DNA from: a virus | Virus record (IMG/VR): IMGVR_UViG_3300028844_005445 | Span: 1 to 64,000 of that record | DNA: 64,000 nt | Strand: one strand, 5' to 3' | Shown here: piece after piece, positions 53,181-64,000 of the stretch | Layout: each line of letters starts with the position of its first letter | How positions within the stretch are numbered: the first letter of the stretch is position 1 | Made by a program: the position numbers and the translations under genes | Notes under the pieces: generated by a model | Database searches by the model: none | What the model was told of the DNA's origin: nothing | What the model saw: the letters and a program-made list of their open reading frames with translations, nothing else

Positions 53181-53306
53181 TCAACTGTCAGTTGTGAATA
53201 AAATCTTGACACCTTTGGGTATATGTTTTCGAATCCATGCGCGGAAAGCTAAGGTCGGTGGTAATTCTTTCACTTTTATTAACACACTTTTTTGTTCAGT
53301 TGTCAT
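53181..53306 (-). CDS. small basic protein, 41 aa
   Basis: 41 residues, MTTEQKSVLIKVKELPPTLA then FRAWIRKHIPKGVKILFTTDS. The ATG overlaps the last codons of the metallopeptidase gene and the stop lies in the -35 region of the next promoter, the same compact style as the early cluster. The start LIKVKELPPTLAFRAWI looks structured. No function assigned. Confidence 0.5.
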   Translation of the reverse strand: MTTEQKSVLIKVKELPPTLAFRAWIRKHIPKGVKILFTTDS

Positions 53307-53673
53307 ATATGTCCCGGTTGTCACGTTGAAATTTTCTCATTATGATACCCGCTAGAGAGTTAGCTTCATTTTCAATCGGACTACCGTCATCTCCACTCCC
53401 TGGTTCCAATCGACCTTCTTCGTGTTGTTTAGCGTGTACTAGCTCGTGTGCAAGGCTTCTGAGTATATCAACTAACGCGCGATCTTTTGTTAACACCTTG
53501 ATCTCCCGGGTCATAGGGCTGAAACATCCGGTTGTCATATTTTGTTCAGGTTCATCTACAAAACCTATTTCACAAGGGCTCTGTATGTCTAAACTATGGT
53601 TACAGAACTTTACGAATTTATCGATGGTGTCTCTTTTTTCATACAGAGTAACAAATTGTTTGAAGCTGTTCAC
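53296..53673 (-). CDS. zinc metallopeptidase-like protein, capsid-targeting-like N-terminus
   Basis: 125 residues from a GTG start. The zincin motif AHELVHAKQHEEG (HExxH, about residues 79-91) is followed 20 residues later by ENEANSLAG, whose Glu fits the third ligand of gluzincins, so a Zn protease is likely. The N-terminus NSFKQFVTLYEKRDTIDKF resembles T4 capsid-targeting leaders (x-SFKxF/Y...E). Together with the late box 5 nt upstream this suggests a protease carried in the virion and perhaps injected. The target is unknown. Confidence 0.75.
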   Translation of the reverse strand: MNSFKQFVTLYEKRDTIDKFVKFCNHSLDIQSPCEIGFVDEPEQNMTTGCFSPMTREIKVLTKDRALVDILRSLAHELVHAKQHEEGRLEPGSGDDGSPIENEANSLAGIIMRKFQRDNRDIYDN

Positions 53674-54179: not shown

Positions 54180-54187
54180 TATTTATA
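54180..54187 (-). promoter_or_regulatory. late promoter box
   Basis: Minus strand TATAAATA, 5 nt before the ATG at 54174; it overlaps the queE stop codon. Confidence 0.75.
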
Positions 54188-54959
54188 CCCCAGTCGTTTG
54201 ATCCCAAGCACTAACATGTAATCTTGTCAAACCCGTATAACCATACTTCTTGCCCATCTCCATACAAAACTTGGTACGTTCATGATAATTTTCTTGCTTG
54301 TCTAGACCAGGCATCATCAACACACGTTTAGGTGGTATGTTGAATGGTTTGATAAAATCACGTTCAATCTCTTTCAAACACTCTTCTGTACTAATTACGA
54401 ACTTGAACCAGTAGTTTGGGTGTTGCATGATACGTTCCAATGCTTTAGTCACAATACGTCGGTCTTTACCCATACCACTGTTTTCAAGCTTGACCGAACA
54501 ATTGATTTGCTTCAATTTATCAAACAAACCATCTTCTATATAGATTGTACCATTTGTTTCAATCTCGTTATATATTGATTGTGCTTCCCACTTGTCAGTA
54601 CAATGGTTCTCATAAAACCAATCTAAAAAATTAATTATTGCGCGTTGATTTTTTGGTATGGACGGTTCACCACCGGTCCAGATCAAGTTGACGCGTCCTT
54701 GTTTGATCCAGTCAAGCACGTTCTCTTCTTTCCATCTGTCAACAAGGTATTGAAATGGTTTTTCTAAACCTTTACGCCAAACATACTCAGTGTCGCACCA
54801 CCAAGTGGCTTTACCTTCCTTCATCAAGCTACCATCAGCACCACCACACATCAAGTTACATGCTTTGAGTCTGATGAAGTATGCCGGTACACCACTGGTA
54901 TTACCTTCACCTTGTACACTGTAAAAGTCTTCTGCTATGTTTAATGTTTCAATTTTCAT
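54183..54959 (-). CDS. queE: 7-carboxy-7-deazaguanine synthase
   Basis: 258 residues. Radical SAM enzyme turning 6-carboxytetrahydropterin into 7-carboxy-7-deazaguanine. YSVQGEGNTSGVPAYFIRLKACNLMCGG and WWCDTEYVW give the 4Fe-4S cysteines, but the spacing is C-x3-C-x16-C: an insertion separates the second and third Cys compared with the usual C-x3-C-x2-C. LIWTGGEPSIPKNQ is the SAM-binding GGE motif. This long-loop form looks like a phage-type QueE. It is 3 nt from queD in one operon. Product feeds preQ0, commonly used for phage DNA or host tRNA modification. Confidence 0.88.
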   Translation of the reverse strand: MKIETLNIAEDFYSVQGEGNTSGVPAYFIRLKACNLMCGGADGSLMKEGKATWWCDTEYVWRKGLEKPFQYLVDRWKEENVLDWIKQGRVNLIWTGGEPSIPKNQRAIINFLDWFYENHCTDKWEAQSIYNEIETNGTIYIEDGLFDKLKQINCSVKLENSGMGKDRRIVTKALERIMQHPNYWFKFVISTEECLKEIERDFIKPFNIPPKRVLMMPGLDKQENYHERTKFCMEMGKKYGYTGLTRLHVSAWDQTTGV

Positions 54960-54961
54960 AT

Positions 54962-55597
54962 TTAAAATAACCAGGTATTTTTTGTCCTTCCTTTGTATTT
55001 TGGATCAACCCACGAACCTTCTGTTTTCTGTTGACCGTATTTTTCTGGTGCCGGTTTGGTTGATTTTGTTGATTGTTTTGGTTGTGTGTCTGATTTAGAA
55101 ACTTCTTTAGTCACGGTTTTTGTTTGCTCAACCTGCCCAGATGTTGATTGAGTTTTTTGTTCAGGATATGACTCGTATATTGCTGAGTTATTCTCATGTT
55201 CAAACACTTCTACTCTGACACACCGGCACCTCAGTTTGGTCAACACTCCAGCAAAATTATCGGCCGCAGCATGACACCATTCAGCAAATTTTTCTATACC
55301 AACTCCGTCCATGATCTTGAGATCACACAACCCTAGCTTTCCTAGTTTGATAAATTCATCTAGATGTGGGTCGTGTTTCGATACACAGGTGGTATGGTCA
55401 AATTGATCTTGTAACAGTTGTTTGAGCTCTTTGAGACTTCCGAAGTCTACCACCCAATTATTTTCATCTAATTCGTTAGCTGCGAACCAAAATTTAGCGG
55501 TCAATCGATAACCATGTATGAATCTACAATGGCTTTTGGCTTTTGGTTGTCTGAACGCACAGCTACCCAGTTCTATAATCTTGGTACTATAATGCAT
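54962..55597 (-). CDS. queD: 6-carboxytetrahydropterin synthase-like (QueD)
   Basis: 211 residues. QueD/PTPS-fold enzyme acting on 7,8-dihydroneopterin triphosphate. Conserved blocks: CAFRQPKAKSHCRFIHGYRL, NNWVVDFGSLKELKQLL, QFDHTTCVSKHDP and VEVFEHENNSAIYE. The usual zinc-ligand triad (H in the first strand plus H-G-H) is altered: only the first His of HGY is kept and the early His is absent, as I recall for some phage QueD forms. A Pro/Lys/Thr-rich C-terminal extension (about 150-211) is not part of the fold. Start set by a strong leaderless promoter. Confidence 0.82.
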   Translation of the reverse strand: MHYSTKIIELGSCAFRQPKAKSHCRFIHGYRLTAKFWFAANELDENNWVVDFGSLKELKQLLQDQFDHTTCVSKHDPHLDEFIKLGKLGLCDLKIMDGVGIEKFAEWCHAAADNFAGVLTKLRCRCVRVEVFEHENNSAIYESYPEQKTQSTSGQVEQTKTVTKEVSKSDTQPKQSTKSTKPAPEKYGQQKTEGSWVDPKYKGRTKNTWLF

Positions 55598-59710: not shown

Positions 59711-59716
59711 CATTGT

Positions 59717-60361
59717 ATGGATTCATTCAAATTACAGTACGCTAATGGTAATCATCCGAGAACCCCGGTGGAACAAGAGCAGATTATTGAAAATGCTGCA
59801 AGAGCATACGAACAATATATGGATGCTCTTGGATTCGATTGGAGATCTGACCCTAACAGCGCTGACACACCTCGACGAGTAGCTAAGGCTTTTGTAAATG
59901 ACCTTGCTGAAGGATGTTACAATGAACCTCCTAAGATCACAGCGTTTGACAATGTGGATGGTTATGACGGAGTTGTGTTTCAAGGTAACATTAAAGTTAC
60001 AAGCATGTGCTCTCATCATCATCTACCGTTTGTAGGTAATGCACATGTCGCGTATATTCCAGGAACGGATGGTAAGGTGATAGGACTGAGCAAGTTGAAC
60101 AGAACTGTTGAATGGTTTGCGAGGAGACCCCAAGTACAAGAGAACCTGACCATGCAAATACATCAACACCTGAGCAAGGTAGCAACTGGTAACAAAGGTG
60201 TAGCTGTGATGGTTGAAGCTAATCACTTATGTGCTTGTGTACGTGGCGTGAGACACGACAGTACCATGAAAACTGCACGAATGACCGGGGCTTTTCTTGA
60301 TAAAGACGATATAAACACACGTCAAGAATTTTATGATTTTATTAGAGATTTAAAACGATGA
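59717..60361 (+). CDS. folE: GTP cyclohydrolase I
   Basis: 214 residues, a full FolE. It converts GTP to 7,8-dihydroneopterin triphosphate, the substrate of QueD (and of folate synthesis). The zinc/active-site blocks are clear: [20 protein letters not shown] (Cys and His ligands), [20 protein letters not shown], and [13 protein letters not shown] (third ligand Cys). The usual CEHH is CSHH here. The start at ATG 59717, not the longer frame to 59561, is fixed by the promoter with 6-nt spacing. Confidence 0.93.
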
Positions 60362-60498
60362 ACACACTAGTACAAACAATTGAATGTACCACAGGTACAT
60401 GCGGCCACATGAGTCACCAACTATTAACAACCACAGGATTATTTATCTTAGTAGCAATAACCACATTTGCAGTTATACACTATTTTGTTAAAGATTAG
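60358..60498 (+). CDS. small single-span membrane protein, 46 aa
   Basis: 46 residues, [20 protein letters not shown] then [20 protein letters not shown] then HYFVKD. One transmembrane helix (about 22-40) after a Cys/His-containing outer or inner segment ([12 protein letters not shown]). The ATG overlaps the folE stop (ATGA), so it is translationally coupled to folE, and it ends inside the convergent gene 60488-61069 (11-nt overlap). Unlikely to be chance because the frame is open, overlapped in the usual way and clearly membrane-type. Function unknown. Confidence 0.55.
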
Positions 60499-61069
60499 CA
60501 AGTATGTTTTGTATCTGAACTGGGTCTACATGTTCAGGAATATCTGCTAATATAGCATCCGGATCATCAAAATTATCACGTATGTTTGATGCGCTGTATG
60601 GTGTTCCATCTGGTTTATCTAGTACATCTACAGCTGTTAATTGTGGGTCTAGTATATCTACATTCAAGCCTTTATTAGCTGCCCATTTTTGAGCTCCACT
60701 CCAACGTTTCCAATCGTTATCCTTTTTACTAGCTCCCAGTATAACTCTTTTACCACCAAGAGATTCCAGTGCATCATATGCTGCTCCAACAGGACTTGGC
60801 ATGCTGCTTATCTCTACTGTAACATTCGGTAAGTTACTAACATACAATTCAAATATTTTTTTAGACACTTCTGGGGTGATCACTTGACCGGTTTTTGTGA
60901 CTCGTTGACTTTTAGAACTTGGAGCGGATATTAATACAACTACGTCGTTAGCCATGCCAGAGTATATACTCACCATTTGATAATGACCTTTATGCGGCGG
61001 TTTGAAACTGCCCGGTACAAGTGCTATGTCAGCCTGTCGGTTGACAAAATCTTTGAAGGATCCAATCAT
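60488..61069 (-). CDS. HxGH-type nucleotidyltransferase
   Basis: 193 residues. SFKPPHKGHYQMVSIYSG is the HxGH (cytidylyltransferase/NadM/PPAT) motif, here PPHKGH, at about residues 21-38; VVVLISAPSSKSQR follows and YSASNIRD (near 160) stands for the C-terminal ISST.R-type motif. These enzymes adenylylate or cytidylylate small phosphates (e.g. NMN, phosphopantetheine, glycerol-P). The N-terminus MIGSFKDFVNRQADIA fits the capsid-targeting leader pattern. Start overlaps the stop of 61066-62334 by 4 nt. Confidence 0.75.
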   Translation of the reverse strand: MIGSFKDFVNRQADIALVPGSFKPPHKGHYQMVSIYSGMANDVVVLISAPSSKSQRVTKTGQVITPEVSKKIFELYVSNLPNVTVEISSMPSPVGAAYDALESLGGKRVILGASKKDNDWKRWSGAQKWAANKGLNVDILDPQLTAVDVLDKPDGTPYSASNIRDNFDDPDAILADIPEHVDPVQIQNILANL

Positions 61070-62334
61070 CCGAACTTCTTGTTAGGGTCGAAATTCGCCT
61101 TGCTGAACTCTAGTCTATCGACTAGTTTTACCGCATTACCAATGTGATCTACTGCTACAAAACCTTCAGGCTTGGTCACTTGAAAACTACCATCTTCTTG
61201 CTCTATGAAGCTGTCCATGGCTCTTAGATTGGATAGTTTTATCACATACACGTTTTTAATTTTCATCAGTTTGATATATAAATCGTACATCATCTCAATG
61301 TTCGACCGGTTTTGTTCTAAAAATGTTACACCAGCTTCCATTGCTCGTCGTTTGCGTATTTGACCAGTTTCTGTTTTGAGTTTGGCTATAGCGCGTTCAG
61401 ATTTGTCTATGTACCTATCTATGAAACTGTTAGCGAATTTCACTGGATCTGCTTCAAATTGACCTTGTGTTTTGATTGCACTGTTAATATGAGCTTTGAG
61501 CTCCACTTTCAGATCTGAAATTTGGTCTTTGATGTTCACAAAATCTATCACATCTTTCACTTGCCAGAAGTGATTCTTACATTCACGTATCAATTCACGT
61601 ATCGTGGCGGTTTCTTCAGGTGTTAATTGTACTTGACCGCTCACATCCTTGAATGTAGCATCATCAAACCAGACACTTGAATGTGGGGTGAGTCTGTCTG
61701 CTTTGAAACCGAAACTGGCACTCATGTCATGTATTGTGGGACCACCAGTGTACATGGTATGAAACACTATTCCCATGTCTGTACTCTTGATTTTTTTAGC
61801 GAGATCTGACTCGACAGGAACAGCATATGTGATGGTATTTGGTTTGAATACTATATGATTCTCCCCGTCTATAGTAGCTTCACGGATGCTATCTTTTGTG
61901 TATAACATGTCTCCTTGCAGTACATATCCCTCTATTCCTATATTTTTTAAAGTTTTAAAAGCGGTTTTGAGTTTCTTTCTCAATTGACTCTTGTCTTGTG
62001 TTGAATCACCACGTTTCACATCTCCATGATTACGATTTATGTCTGTGATACGTTTGTTCATTTTCGGGATTTTACCAAAAACTGCTTTGGTACCTACGAA
62101 AAATTTACCGTCAGCTGGATCAGTACCAGCAAATATGGCTGGTGCCCCGTCCCATTTTGTTGTGATGTCTACTGGTTCAGCTGCGTGTCCTTGCAAGGTG
62201 TCCAGCAAGCCTATATACATACTTAATGCACGTTCAACGCCTGTTGTTCCATGATTTATCAGTTCATCTTCAACGTGCTCTAGGTGAGTGTTTTTACTCT
62301 CTACATGAAGTAAATATTGTTTGAACGAGTACAT
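61066..62334 (-). CDS. ligase-like nucleotidyltransferase (KxDG), DUF6267-like
   Basis: 422 residues. VDITTKWDGAPAIFAGTDPADGKFFVGTKAVFG (about 56-88) has the K-x-D-G motif I and following strands of the DNA/RNA ligase/capping nucleotidyltransferase fold; IEGYVLQGDMLYT and ENHIVFKPNTITYAVP (about 150-185) look like motifs III/IIIa. The C-terminal half is helical. Without motif IV/V certainty it may be a diverged, inactive or specialised ligase. The N-terminus MYSFKQYLLHVESKNTHLEH fits the capsid-targeting leader (LHVE|S). Late box 5 nt upstream. The arrangement resembles an uncharacterised T4-like phage family. Confidence 0.6.
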   Translation of the reverse strand: MYSFKQYLLHVESKNTHLEHVEDELINHGTTGVERALSMYIGLLDTLQGHAAEPVDITTKWDGAPAIFAGTDPADGKFFVGTKAVFGKIPKMNKRITDINRNHGDVKRGDSTQDKSQLRKKLKTAFKTLKNIGIEGYVLQGDMLYTKDSIREATIDGENHIVFKPNTITYAVPVESDLAKKIKSTDMGIVFHTMYTGGPTIHDMSASFGFKADRLTPHSSVWFDDATFKDVSGQVQLTPEETATIRELIRECKNHFWQVKDVIDFVNIKDQISDLKVELKAHINSAIKTQGQFEADPVKFANSFIDRYIDKSERAIAKLKTETGQIRKRRAMEAGVTFLEQNRSNIEMMYDLYIKLMKIKNVYVIKLSNLRAMDSFIEQEDGSFQVTKPEGFVAVDHIGNAVKLVDRLEFSKANFDPNKKFG

Positions 62335-62339
62335 AACAT

Positions 62340-62347
62340 TATTTATG
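62340..62347 (-). promoter_or_regulatory. late promoter box
   Basis: Minus strand CATAAATA, 5 nt before the ATG at 62334. Confidence 0.75.
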
Positions 62348-62351
62348 CTCG

Positions 62352-63467
62352 TTAACCGGATACACTTATACCTATACCTTTGTTTCGTGTATCTACCCCT
62401 GGATTTGACACAAATATACCAGGGTTATTGTTGAGTTGTTTATACACATATTTAAATTTTTCACCAGTGTCATGTGTTGGTTCAAATTTTATATTAGCTG
62501 CAACAAGTGTGTTTGTATTCAACACAACTATACGTTCAAACCCATGAACTGATTGATATGAGGTGGCCATCAATGCGGCTTGTAGTCTTTGTAATTCAAT
62601 CTGAGCGATTGTTTTTGTCTTACCTTTTTGAGCCGATTTTAAATTTGTTAATTGCTTCAATAGATCTGAATTTTTAAAAACTTGCTCTGCTGCACTTGTT
62701 AAAGATGCAACAGCACCCGCGTCCATCTCTTCAGTTCTCATCTCGACGAACGCTTCCGCTAATTCACGAGCAGACATACCCCAGTCATGATTGAACATGT
62801 ATTGAGCACTGCTTTGCCAGTTGTAGTCTGTTTTTGTTTCATCTGTGGTTATCAATGTGTCTAGTAATGACAGTACGGCTTGTGTGTTGGTTTGACTTGT
62901 TTTTGTAAGAGGTGGGTGTTCATATCCAGATGCAGCATCAAACGCGGTCTTGATGTTACTAGCAGCTAACTTGGGATCTACTACTGACTTTGGATCTTCT
63001 AACATCTCGAGATTTTTATCCAATTGGTTGTAGGTTCCTTCGATCTGTTCTTGTATCTCTGGAAACTTACTAACCGCTTTTCTCATTGTAGCAAAATTCT
63101 TTCTAGCAGCAGCTGCTTTTACAGCAATCTTAGCTCGAATCTGAGGTGTTTCAGCTTGAGAGAAATGTTGACCGGTTCCGCGACCGTTTAAAATATTTAA
63201 AAATTTGTTACCGGGTGTGGTGAAAATGGCTTTTGTATAATCACTGCTACCTAATCGACCACCATCTCCCTTGATTTCAAGCTCCATACCATCAAGCATC
63301 AAGTCTCCAACATCACCCTTTGTAGCATTTGTGAACATGCTCAAACTGATCTCTCCAGGACCTACACTAACAGTCGCGATTTTAGGTTGTACCTTGTATG
63401 TGAGGTCTTTGAATAAGCTATCGAACCTTTTTGTCAACTTACGCGCGAGTGGATCGACCGCTTGCAT
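62352..63467 (-). CDS. possible PD-(D/E)xK nuclease-like protein
   Basis: 371 residues from ATG 63467. GPGEISLSMFTNATKGDVGDLMLDGMELEIKGDGGRLG (about 52-89) contains a plausible PD-(D/E)xK core: Asp in GDLMLDG and the E-x-K of MELEIKGDGG, preceded by a Glu. The remaining ~280 residues are helical with repeats of KxxA/AxxA (KAAAARKNFATMRKAVSKFP). The frame is open upstream of the ATG (a family-like GTLGNLESCVNKNGVWNLMQ precedes it, with no start codon before a stop at about 63542), so the true N-terminus may come by frameshift from 63502-63825. Function unknown. Confidence 0.55.
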   Translation of the reverse strand: MQAVDPLARKLTKRFDSLFKDLTYKVQPKIATVSVGPGEISLSMFTNATKGDVGDLMLDGMELEIKGDGGRLGSSDYTKAIFTTPGNKFLNILNGRGTGQHFSQAETPQIRAKIAVKAAAARKNFATMRKAVSKFPEIQEQIEGTYNQLDKNLEMLEDPKSVVDPKLAASNIKTAFDAASGYEHPPLTKTSQTNTQAVLSLLDTLITTDETKTDYNWQSSAQYMFNHDWGMSARELAEAFVEMRTEEMDAGAVASLTSAAEQVFKNSDLLKQLTNLKSAQKGKTKTIAQIELQRLQAALMATSYQSVHGFERIVVLNTNTLVAANIKFEPTHDTGEKFKYVYKQLNNNPGIFVSNPGVDTRNKGIGISVSG

Positions 63468-63501
63468 TAAATTCCATACACCGTTTTTATTAACACATGA
63501 T

Positions 63502-63825
63502 TCAAGGTTTCCTAGTGTACCGGCTTTCTTTTTTTCGACGAGTTAAAAATATTTCTAACACTAATGTGTCAATGTCTGAGATCTCCTCCCATTTACCCAG
63601 ACGTAGCAATTGTTTAACCAAGCTCTCCACACCACCATCGGCTTTGCTTAGTACCAAACGTTTCAATTTTTGATAATCGTCGGTGGTTACTGCACCAAGA
63701 TCTTCTTGATCACCAGTTTCAGGTACACCGATGATGCTTACATTCTCTTGTATCTGTCGAGATTCTGTGTATATGTCTACAAGTGATTTATACTTGTACG
63801 GTTTGGATGGTTTGTTGAAGTTCAT
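63502..63825 (-). CDS. hypothetical protein, possible frameshift partner
   Basis: 107 residues (MNFNKPSKPYKYKSLVDIYT, then ESRQIQENVSIIGVPETGDQ...). Basic N-terminus with a leader-like SLVDIYTES and a C-terminus ending EIFLTRRKKESRYTRKP. The ending is read through an A7 tract at which a +1 (or -2) shift would join the open frame leading to 62352-63467. Alternatively it simply ends here and the next gene starts at ATG 63467. The start overlaps the stop of the partial gene upstream. Confidence 0.55.
   Translation of the reverse strand: MNFNKPSKPYKYKSLVDIYTESRQIQENVSIIGVPETGDQEDLGAVTTDDYQKLKRLVLSKADGGVESLVKQLLRLGKWEEISDIDTLVLEIFLTRRKKESRYTRKP
63529..63535 (-). other. A7 tract, candidate frameshift site
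   Basis: Seven A in a row (minus strand, CGAAAAAAAG) in the overlap of 63502-63825 and the upstream-open frame of 62352-63467. Typical of ribosomal or polymerase slippage sites. Confidence 0.4.
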
Positions 63826-64000
63826 ACATCAGATATATTAACGTCACTGTACTGTTTCATCAAGCTAACAAATTTGTTGAGCATGCTTTTGCTGTTATTT
63901 TCATTGATACTACCCATTAGGTCATGTACAGCCTCTACACGTTCCTCATTGTCCCCACGTGTCTGTTGAGCGTTTATTATGGAAACTACATCTTGTTTCA
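63822..64000 (-). CDS. partial gene, C-terminal end
   Basis: The last 58 or so codons of a gene running in from beyond the window: ...KQDVVSIINAQQTRGDNEER, VEAVHDLMGSINENNSKSML, NKFVSLMKQYSDVNISDV, stop TGA overlapping the next ATG (ATGA). Helical, polar; no recognisable family from the fragment. Confidence 0.6.
   Translation of the reverse strand, partial: KQDVVSIINAQQTRGDNEERVEAVHDLMGSINENNSKSMLNKFVSLMKQYSDVNISDV

Follow-up and report, generated by a model that had tools for sequence, protein, structure and literature searches.

Carriage of enzymes inside the capsid may extend to a gene trio in a 64-kb stretch of DNA (the window; positions 1 to 64,000 of the 68.7-kb virus record IMGVR_UViG_3300028844_005445), the source of which is a marine T4-like virus of bacteria of the myovirus type. 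Three genes on its minus strand, here called A, B, and C, plausibly form, if slightly short of probably, a late and partly head-packaged module for nucleic acid processing that acts at the start of infection. In this reading, A would be a PD-(D/E)xK-type nuclease and C an HxGH nucleotidyltransferase. B, which contains a helical insertion, would be a covalent nucleotidyltransferase of the KxDG kind and most likely serve as a polynucleotide ligase. A sequence-only reading of the window had proposed that cut, transfer, and seal functions stand together here. The three signatures with conserved key residues, the linkage of the genes, and a late box support this in part, while activity and joint action remain predictions.

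Late trio and motifs of B and C

The three genes are adjacent with partly overlapping frames, as had been read from the sequence: in the list of open reading frames (ORFs), C and B share 4 nucleotides (nt; Table 1). The late box noted ahead of the ligase-like gene is likewise present, since CATAAATA lies 5 nt upstream of the B ATG, a position kept in four relatives (L002, L003, L004, and L005). In cyanophage S-PM2, NATAAATA has been published as the late box (PMC2984593). The whole window holds 40 boxes (29.6 expected); because this number is only modestly above chance, the evidence consists of position and conservation and not of the motif alone. Exactly 5 nt before start codons, NATAAATA stands ahead of 18 genes in G001, the closest long relative (L127 to L138), 71 in the mutually dependent pelagic loci L006 to L081, 7 in HTVC008M (L144 to L146), 4 in the window contig (62340, 53679, 29617, and 12864), and none in the part of T4 that was searched. 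With T4 spacing, transcription would begin at the initial nucleotide of the start codon, giving leaderless late mRNAs.

B belongs to DUF6267 (PF19782; 338 bits; cutoff, 27; E = 9e-101; model positions 1 to 376 of 376) and matches PHROG 455 (E = 4e-85). This family matches 465 phage records, and no paper naming it was found in the literature searched. Motifs I, IV, and V occur in order with invariant lysines (K60-x-D-G, E390-G-x-V, and K403-x-V-x-R). The residues invariant across 13 divergent homologs (29 to 42% identical to B) include KxDGAP, FFV, Q-x-D, PNT, HT, EGxV, and KxVxR; compact forms among them (293 to 308 amino acids [aa]) lack part of the helical middle, yet KxDG, EGxV, and KxVxR are unchanged. 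The order KxDG...EGxV...KxVxR is that of the covalent nucleotidyltransferase superfamily. Judged at the motif level, B is a putative ligase-like covalent nucleotidyltransferase. It shares the order of the KxDG and EG(Y/F)V motifs with Rnl1 of the T4 Rnl1/PseT healing-sealing pair, but differs from the T4 ligases in its helical insertion, in having Q-x-D in place of the acidic residue of ligase motif III, and in the lack of detectable profile similarity to RnlA and RnlB.

C narrowly exceeds the PF01467 cutoff (22.1 bits; cutoff, 21), which places it in the cytidylyltransferase-like superfamily, and it has weak PHROG matches to NMNAT (PHROG 3462) and to cytidyltransferase. In an alignment of the window protein and its relatives (31 rows, one truncated copy excluded), the key residues of the HxGH motif (H26-K-G-H29) and of the C-terminal serine-arginine motif YSASNIR are invariant, which bears out the earlier assignment of C as an HxGH nucleotidyltransferase. 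The best tblastn match of C in the phage collection had an E value of 4e-6. Subtype motifs of the HxGH proteins differ by clade (PGSFKPPHKGH versus TFGRxNPPTxGH), and the window protein is of the PGSFKPPHKGHY subtype.

TABLE 1 Features of the locus in the window
Feature	Position	Strand	Basis
C: HxGH cytidylyltransferase-like protein, 193 aa	60488..61069	-	PF01467; motifs kept in relatives
HxGH motif of C, H26-K-G-H29	60983..60994	-	H26, G28, and H29 invariant in alignment
YSASNIR motif of C, residues 158-164	60578..60598	-	Y158, S159, A160, N162, I163, and R164 invariant
N-terminal leader of C, MIGSFKDFVNRQ, capsid-targeting-like	61034..61069	-	1 of 3 pattern matches among 196 ORFs
B: DUF6267 protein, 422 aa, putative KxDG nucleotidyltransferase/ligase	61066..62334	-	PF19782; PHROG 455; motif conservation
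KWDG motif of B, K60-G63	62146..62157	-	K60, D62, and G63 invariant in 13 divergent homologs
EGxV...KxVxR motifs of B, E390-R407	61114..61167	-	E390, G391, V393, K403, V405, and R407 invariant
N-terminal leader of B, MYSFKQYLLHVE, capsid-targeting-like	62299..62334	-	Leader pattern scan
Late box CATAAATA, 5 nt before B start codon	62340..62347	-	Same place in L002, L003, L004, and L005
A, C-terminal piece (371 aa) of split PD-(D/E)xK-like gene	62352..63467	-	Intact in L002, L004, L005, and L015
E...D...ExK core of A, E39 to K66 of piece	63270..63353	-	Invariant in four relatives 53 to 88% identical
A, N-terminal piece (107 aa) of split gene	63502..63825	-	Matches start of intact 501-aa L002 protein
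Upstream 157-aa gene, continuing beyond window end	63822..64000	-	Homologous to domain fused to C in another clade

Gene A and its exchange

In the window, A (62352 to 63825) is broken into two pieces by a disrupted frame, while L002, L015, L004, and L005 carry a single intact ORF of 501 to 519 aa. These intact relatives were used in place of the window gene. The PD-(D/E)xK-like protein of the sequence-only reading, a 371-aa ORF, is therefore only part of one gene together with the 107-aa ORF, but the residues E39...D55...E64-I-K66 are indeed present. They correspond to E169, D185, and E194-x-K196 in L002 numbering, so that E, D, and (D/E)xK occur in order throughout the family. On the basis of these conserved residues, A is predicted to be a PD-(D/E)xK-type nuclease.

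In the phage collection, a near-DNA search gave no match, and window A had no tblastn match. At the A position, pelagic relatives and cyanophages carry other families (PHROG 1462, 3060, and 8438, and weakly 22045); proteins of the first three, whose function is unknown, occupy the same slot before DUF6267 as A does. Nine A-position alleles, 16 to 58% identical, keep E, PxDI, and SLK, the S replacing the D/E of (D/E)xK. PxDI...SLK is invariant in the PHROG 1462 group, whereas the window gene belongs to a separate family with E...D...ExK. The G003 gene at this position has a GEGE...GD...EIG stretch similar to the window family.

In the pelagic relatives, the A position is a replaceable cassette. 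Two of them (L035 and L037) are 99.2% identical in DNA over 7 kb starting just past the A-position gene and have identical B proteins, while their A-position proteins are only 28% identical. In three further pairs (L006/L019, L042/L043, and L059/L080), the A-position genes have no mutual match and the flanks are mostly 86 to 98% identical. This swapping was observed among the pelagic relatives; A and B of the window clade have diverged in the ordinary way, with no replacement (A, 53 to 60% identical; B, 74 to 81% identical). The position just after B is likewise variable in the pelagic phages (L006 to L081), with an adenylate kinase plus a zeta-like P-loop kinase or other genes, and in L006/L019 and L042/L043, the gene just past B was found in one pair member only.

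Conserved linkage of the trio

The direct order A, B, C is found in P-HM2, S-RSM4, S-SZBM1, S-RIM8, P-SSM3, and S-RIM14. One gene separates B from the HxGH gene in Melnitz and DLP6, and two do so in HTVC008M; S-PM2, S-CRM01, Bellamy, and G003 deviate from the full order. Among the 79 viral contigs, all 44 that extend far enough to be tested carry an HxGH gene at most 6 kb downstream of B, and an ORF of >250 aa lies immediately before B in 73 of 85 cases. Since the HxGH proteins form two remotely similar subtypes, it is the position and kind of gene that are conserved and not one close ortholog.

A clade with a different arrangement (L097 to L123) has C joined to an extra domain, and DUF6267 was not found in the flanks that were fetched; in G003, it lies about 124 kb from the fused C. 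The expected conservation of the trio thus holds for order and linkage in most relatives but fails where C is fused. In the window contig, the fused domain has a stand-alone homolog, the 157-aa gene that immediately precedes A (17.2 bits against the profile of the fused proteins; 21.5 bits for the G001 copy).

Further genes of the healing type accompany the trio in some relatives. G001 carries between B and C a HAD phosphatase that matches polynucleotide kinase (PNK) families, and P-loop kinases follow B in pelagic relatives; both recall the T4 Rnl1/PseT pair.

Capsid-targeting-like leaders and virion proteins

B and C start with leaders like those of the T4 internal proteins ipI, ipII, and ipIII. 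The T4 leaders are MKTYQEFIAEA (ipII and ipIII) and MKTFKEFTS (ipI); the window has variants of this type, MYSFKQYLLHVE in B (SFKQYL) and MIGSFKDFV in C (SFKDFV). A regular expression of strict T4 shape, whose sole matches in the T4 part were ipII and ipIII, missed the window B, and broader patterns were needed. Among 1634 ORFs of 80 relatives, the strict expression matched 75 pelagic copies of B (MYSFKQYLNEA/SES) and 49 adenylate-kinase-like neighbors, counts that are not independent because the loci are related. The broader pattern matched 3 of the 196 window-contig ORFs (two of them B and C); applied to 21865 internal positions, it matched 4, and ipI, ipII, and ipIII were its only matches in the tested T4 sequence. 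By this pattern, B and C carry a capsid-targeting-like leader of the T4 internal protein type. On capsid targeting in cyanophages, the literature searched yielded a single review. The third match is a 125-aa protein (53296 to 53673; MNSFKQFV) with weak metalloprotease matches, which is perhaps head targeted too. In T4, internal proteins have varied cargo, and the targeting sequence is their sole conserved part (PMC3012670); the locus studied here differs in that the cargo would be DUF6267 and HxGH proteins, with a head location predicted from sequence.

Leader-bearing proteins of cyanophages have been detected in virions. In S-CREM2, a T4-shaped expression broader than the strict one matched six ORFs, five of which are among the 52 published virion proteins (PMC10665884). 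None of the five is a named structural protein, and they include the cytidylyltransferase (MKNFSSFLTEA). Other leader-bearing virion proteins of this phage (L214 to L217) are a SAM hydrolase, an APH-like kinase, and small unknown proteins, and in its Cas9-like virion protein, a comparable stretch (RFASFMAEA) lies close to the annotated start. Leaders of the MKNFSSFLTEA type resemble the stretch FGSFLTEAEIGG of T4 gp23, which is cleaved after the glutamate of that stretch. The NMNAT-like proteins or cytidylyltransferases of cyanophage virions (S-SCSM1, S-SZBM1, S-CREM2, and S-CBWM1) belong to the HxGH superfamily, as C does, but the window protein differs from them in subtype. In S-SZBM1, the corresponding protein is encoded directly after DUF6267, bears the leader MRFRQFIIEA, and is in the reported virion list (PMC9146016).

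Proposed mode of action and alternatives

For this phage, we infer the enzymatic activities, the joint action, the head location, and the target. The module would be expressed late, and B and C would enter the prohead core through their leaders, A perhaps being carried in as a bound partner. The prohead protease would then trim B and C, and the proteins would leave the head together with the DNA when the next host is infected. Once inside, A may cut nucleic acid of foreign or host origin, B and C may heal and seal ends that host defense has produced, or both may happen; the PNK-type phosphatase or the P-loop kinases could assist them in some relatives. A doubtful but conceivable extension is a head-delivered cut-and-seal system that would attack rival phages or the nucleic acid of the host in the first minutes after injection. 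Its ligase and nucleotidyltransferase would be constant, and swapping the cassette-borne nuclease gene would by itself determine the specificity. The kinds of components are known (i.e., internal proteins, ligases, HxGH enzymes, and nucleases), while neither this combination nor the swapped position before DUF6267 was found described in the literature searched. If B is a ligase delivered with a swappable nuclease, this would account for a locus that is common in marine phages but uncharacterized, and it would suggest competition between phages, or counter-defense, at the time of injection. Screening for the leader would also be an inexpensive way to test which enzymes marine T4-like phages carry in their heads, given the S-CREM2 matches already seen in virions.

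Several observations weigh against the module as proposed. With the loci analyzed here as input, the AlphaFold model of B is weak (predicted local distance difference test [pLDDT], 60.5), and Foldseek found no fold match for it in the PDB; the model of A is poor (mean pLDDT, 52.9; core, <50). Fold prediction had been suggested as the check on catalytic residues; the conservation given here comes from the alignments. The hhalign comparison of the DUF6267 profile with the T4 RnlB and RnlA families gave no match, the best overlap with RnlA falling on motif IV without significance; as the RnlA-RnlB positive control was also negative, this comparison has no power at such depth. A PDB sequence search with the same profile returned chance matches only. 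For B, the motifs of the earlier ligase-like assignment are present and invariant, but the fold and profile tests do not prove a ligase. The window A family has no Pfam match and no significant PHROG match. The broader leader pattern was devised after the window sequences had been seen, no leader matches were obtained in HTVC008M, and the S-CREM2 authors warn of possible carryover of soluble proteins into the virion proteome (PMC10665884). Packaging in the head, which the sequence-only reading had also suggested, is supported by the leaders and by the C-type proteins of cyanophage virions, but the 30 virion proteins reported for S-SZBM1 include neither its DUF6267 protein nor its A-position protein (PMC9146016).

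The main rival is that the A-position gene is a selfish homing-type endonuclease spreading among coinfecting phages, B and C being ordinary late enzymes that mark its place. The exact replacement of this gene between otherwise nearly identical phages is the kind of trace that homing or gene conversion leaves, and T4-like phages commonly have homing endonucleases (T4 records). We nevertheless consider this unlikely: the gene keeps a single fixed slot before DUF6267 across very divergent phages, differs by replacement and not by presence or absence in the pairs examined, has no GIY-YIG, HNH, or LAGLIDADG match, and in the window clade shows ordinary divergence instead of replacement. It is less likely still that C is a virion-borne NMNAT-like enzyme restoring NAD or steering host metabolism, with A and B as unrelated late DNA enzymes. 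That reading agrees with the interpretation given to the NMNAT-like proteins of several cyanophage virions by the authors who reported them and with the weak PHROG 3462 match, but the HxGH gene is linked to DUF6267 in every testable contig, B bears the same type of leader as C, and the clade-specific subtype motifs make a single metabolic substrate doubtful.

To a similarly low degree, we credit the view that the trio acts late inside the infected cell, on DNA ends in replication or packaging, and is not injected, the leader being an interaction motif or chance. The genes come after those for DNA polymerase, uvsX, and gp41 in many relatives, the B and C copies of P-HM2 and S-RSM4 have no leader, and the absence of DUF6267 from the S-SZBM1 virion list fits as well; against this, the leaders match those of the T4 internal proteins, and virions of S-CREM2 and S-SZBM1 do contain proteins with such leaders. 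Mere chance neighbors with unrelated roles, to which the four phages deviating from the full order might point, are very improbable; we rejected this explanation because of the conserved synteny, the order being kept in most relatives examined and the reading frames overlapping.

Neighboring genes

Near the trio lie QueE-like (54183 to 54959), PTPS/QueD-like (54962 to 55597), and GTP cyclohydrolase I (59711 to 60361) genes, and a QueC-like gene start occurs in G001 (171139 to 171849). Together, these genes possibly serve 7-deazaguanine DNA modification, a change that could protect the phage DNA against nucleases. Upstream of the trio is a further PD-(D/E)xK protein (PDDEXK_15; 83.8 bits; contig positions 65179 to 65679, i.e., L082 10180 to 10680), the gene for which adjoins one for a small lysine-rich protein, possibly a component of the prohead core.

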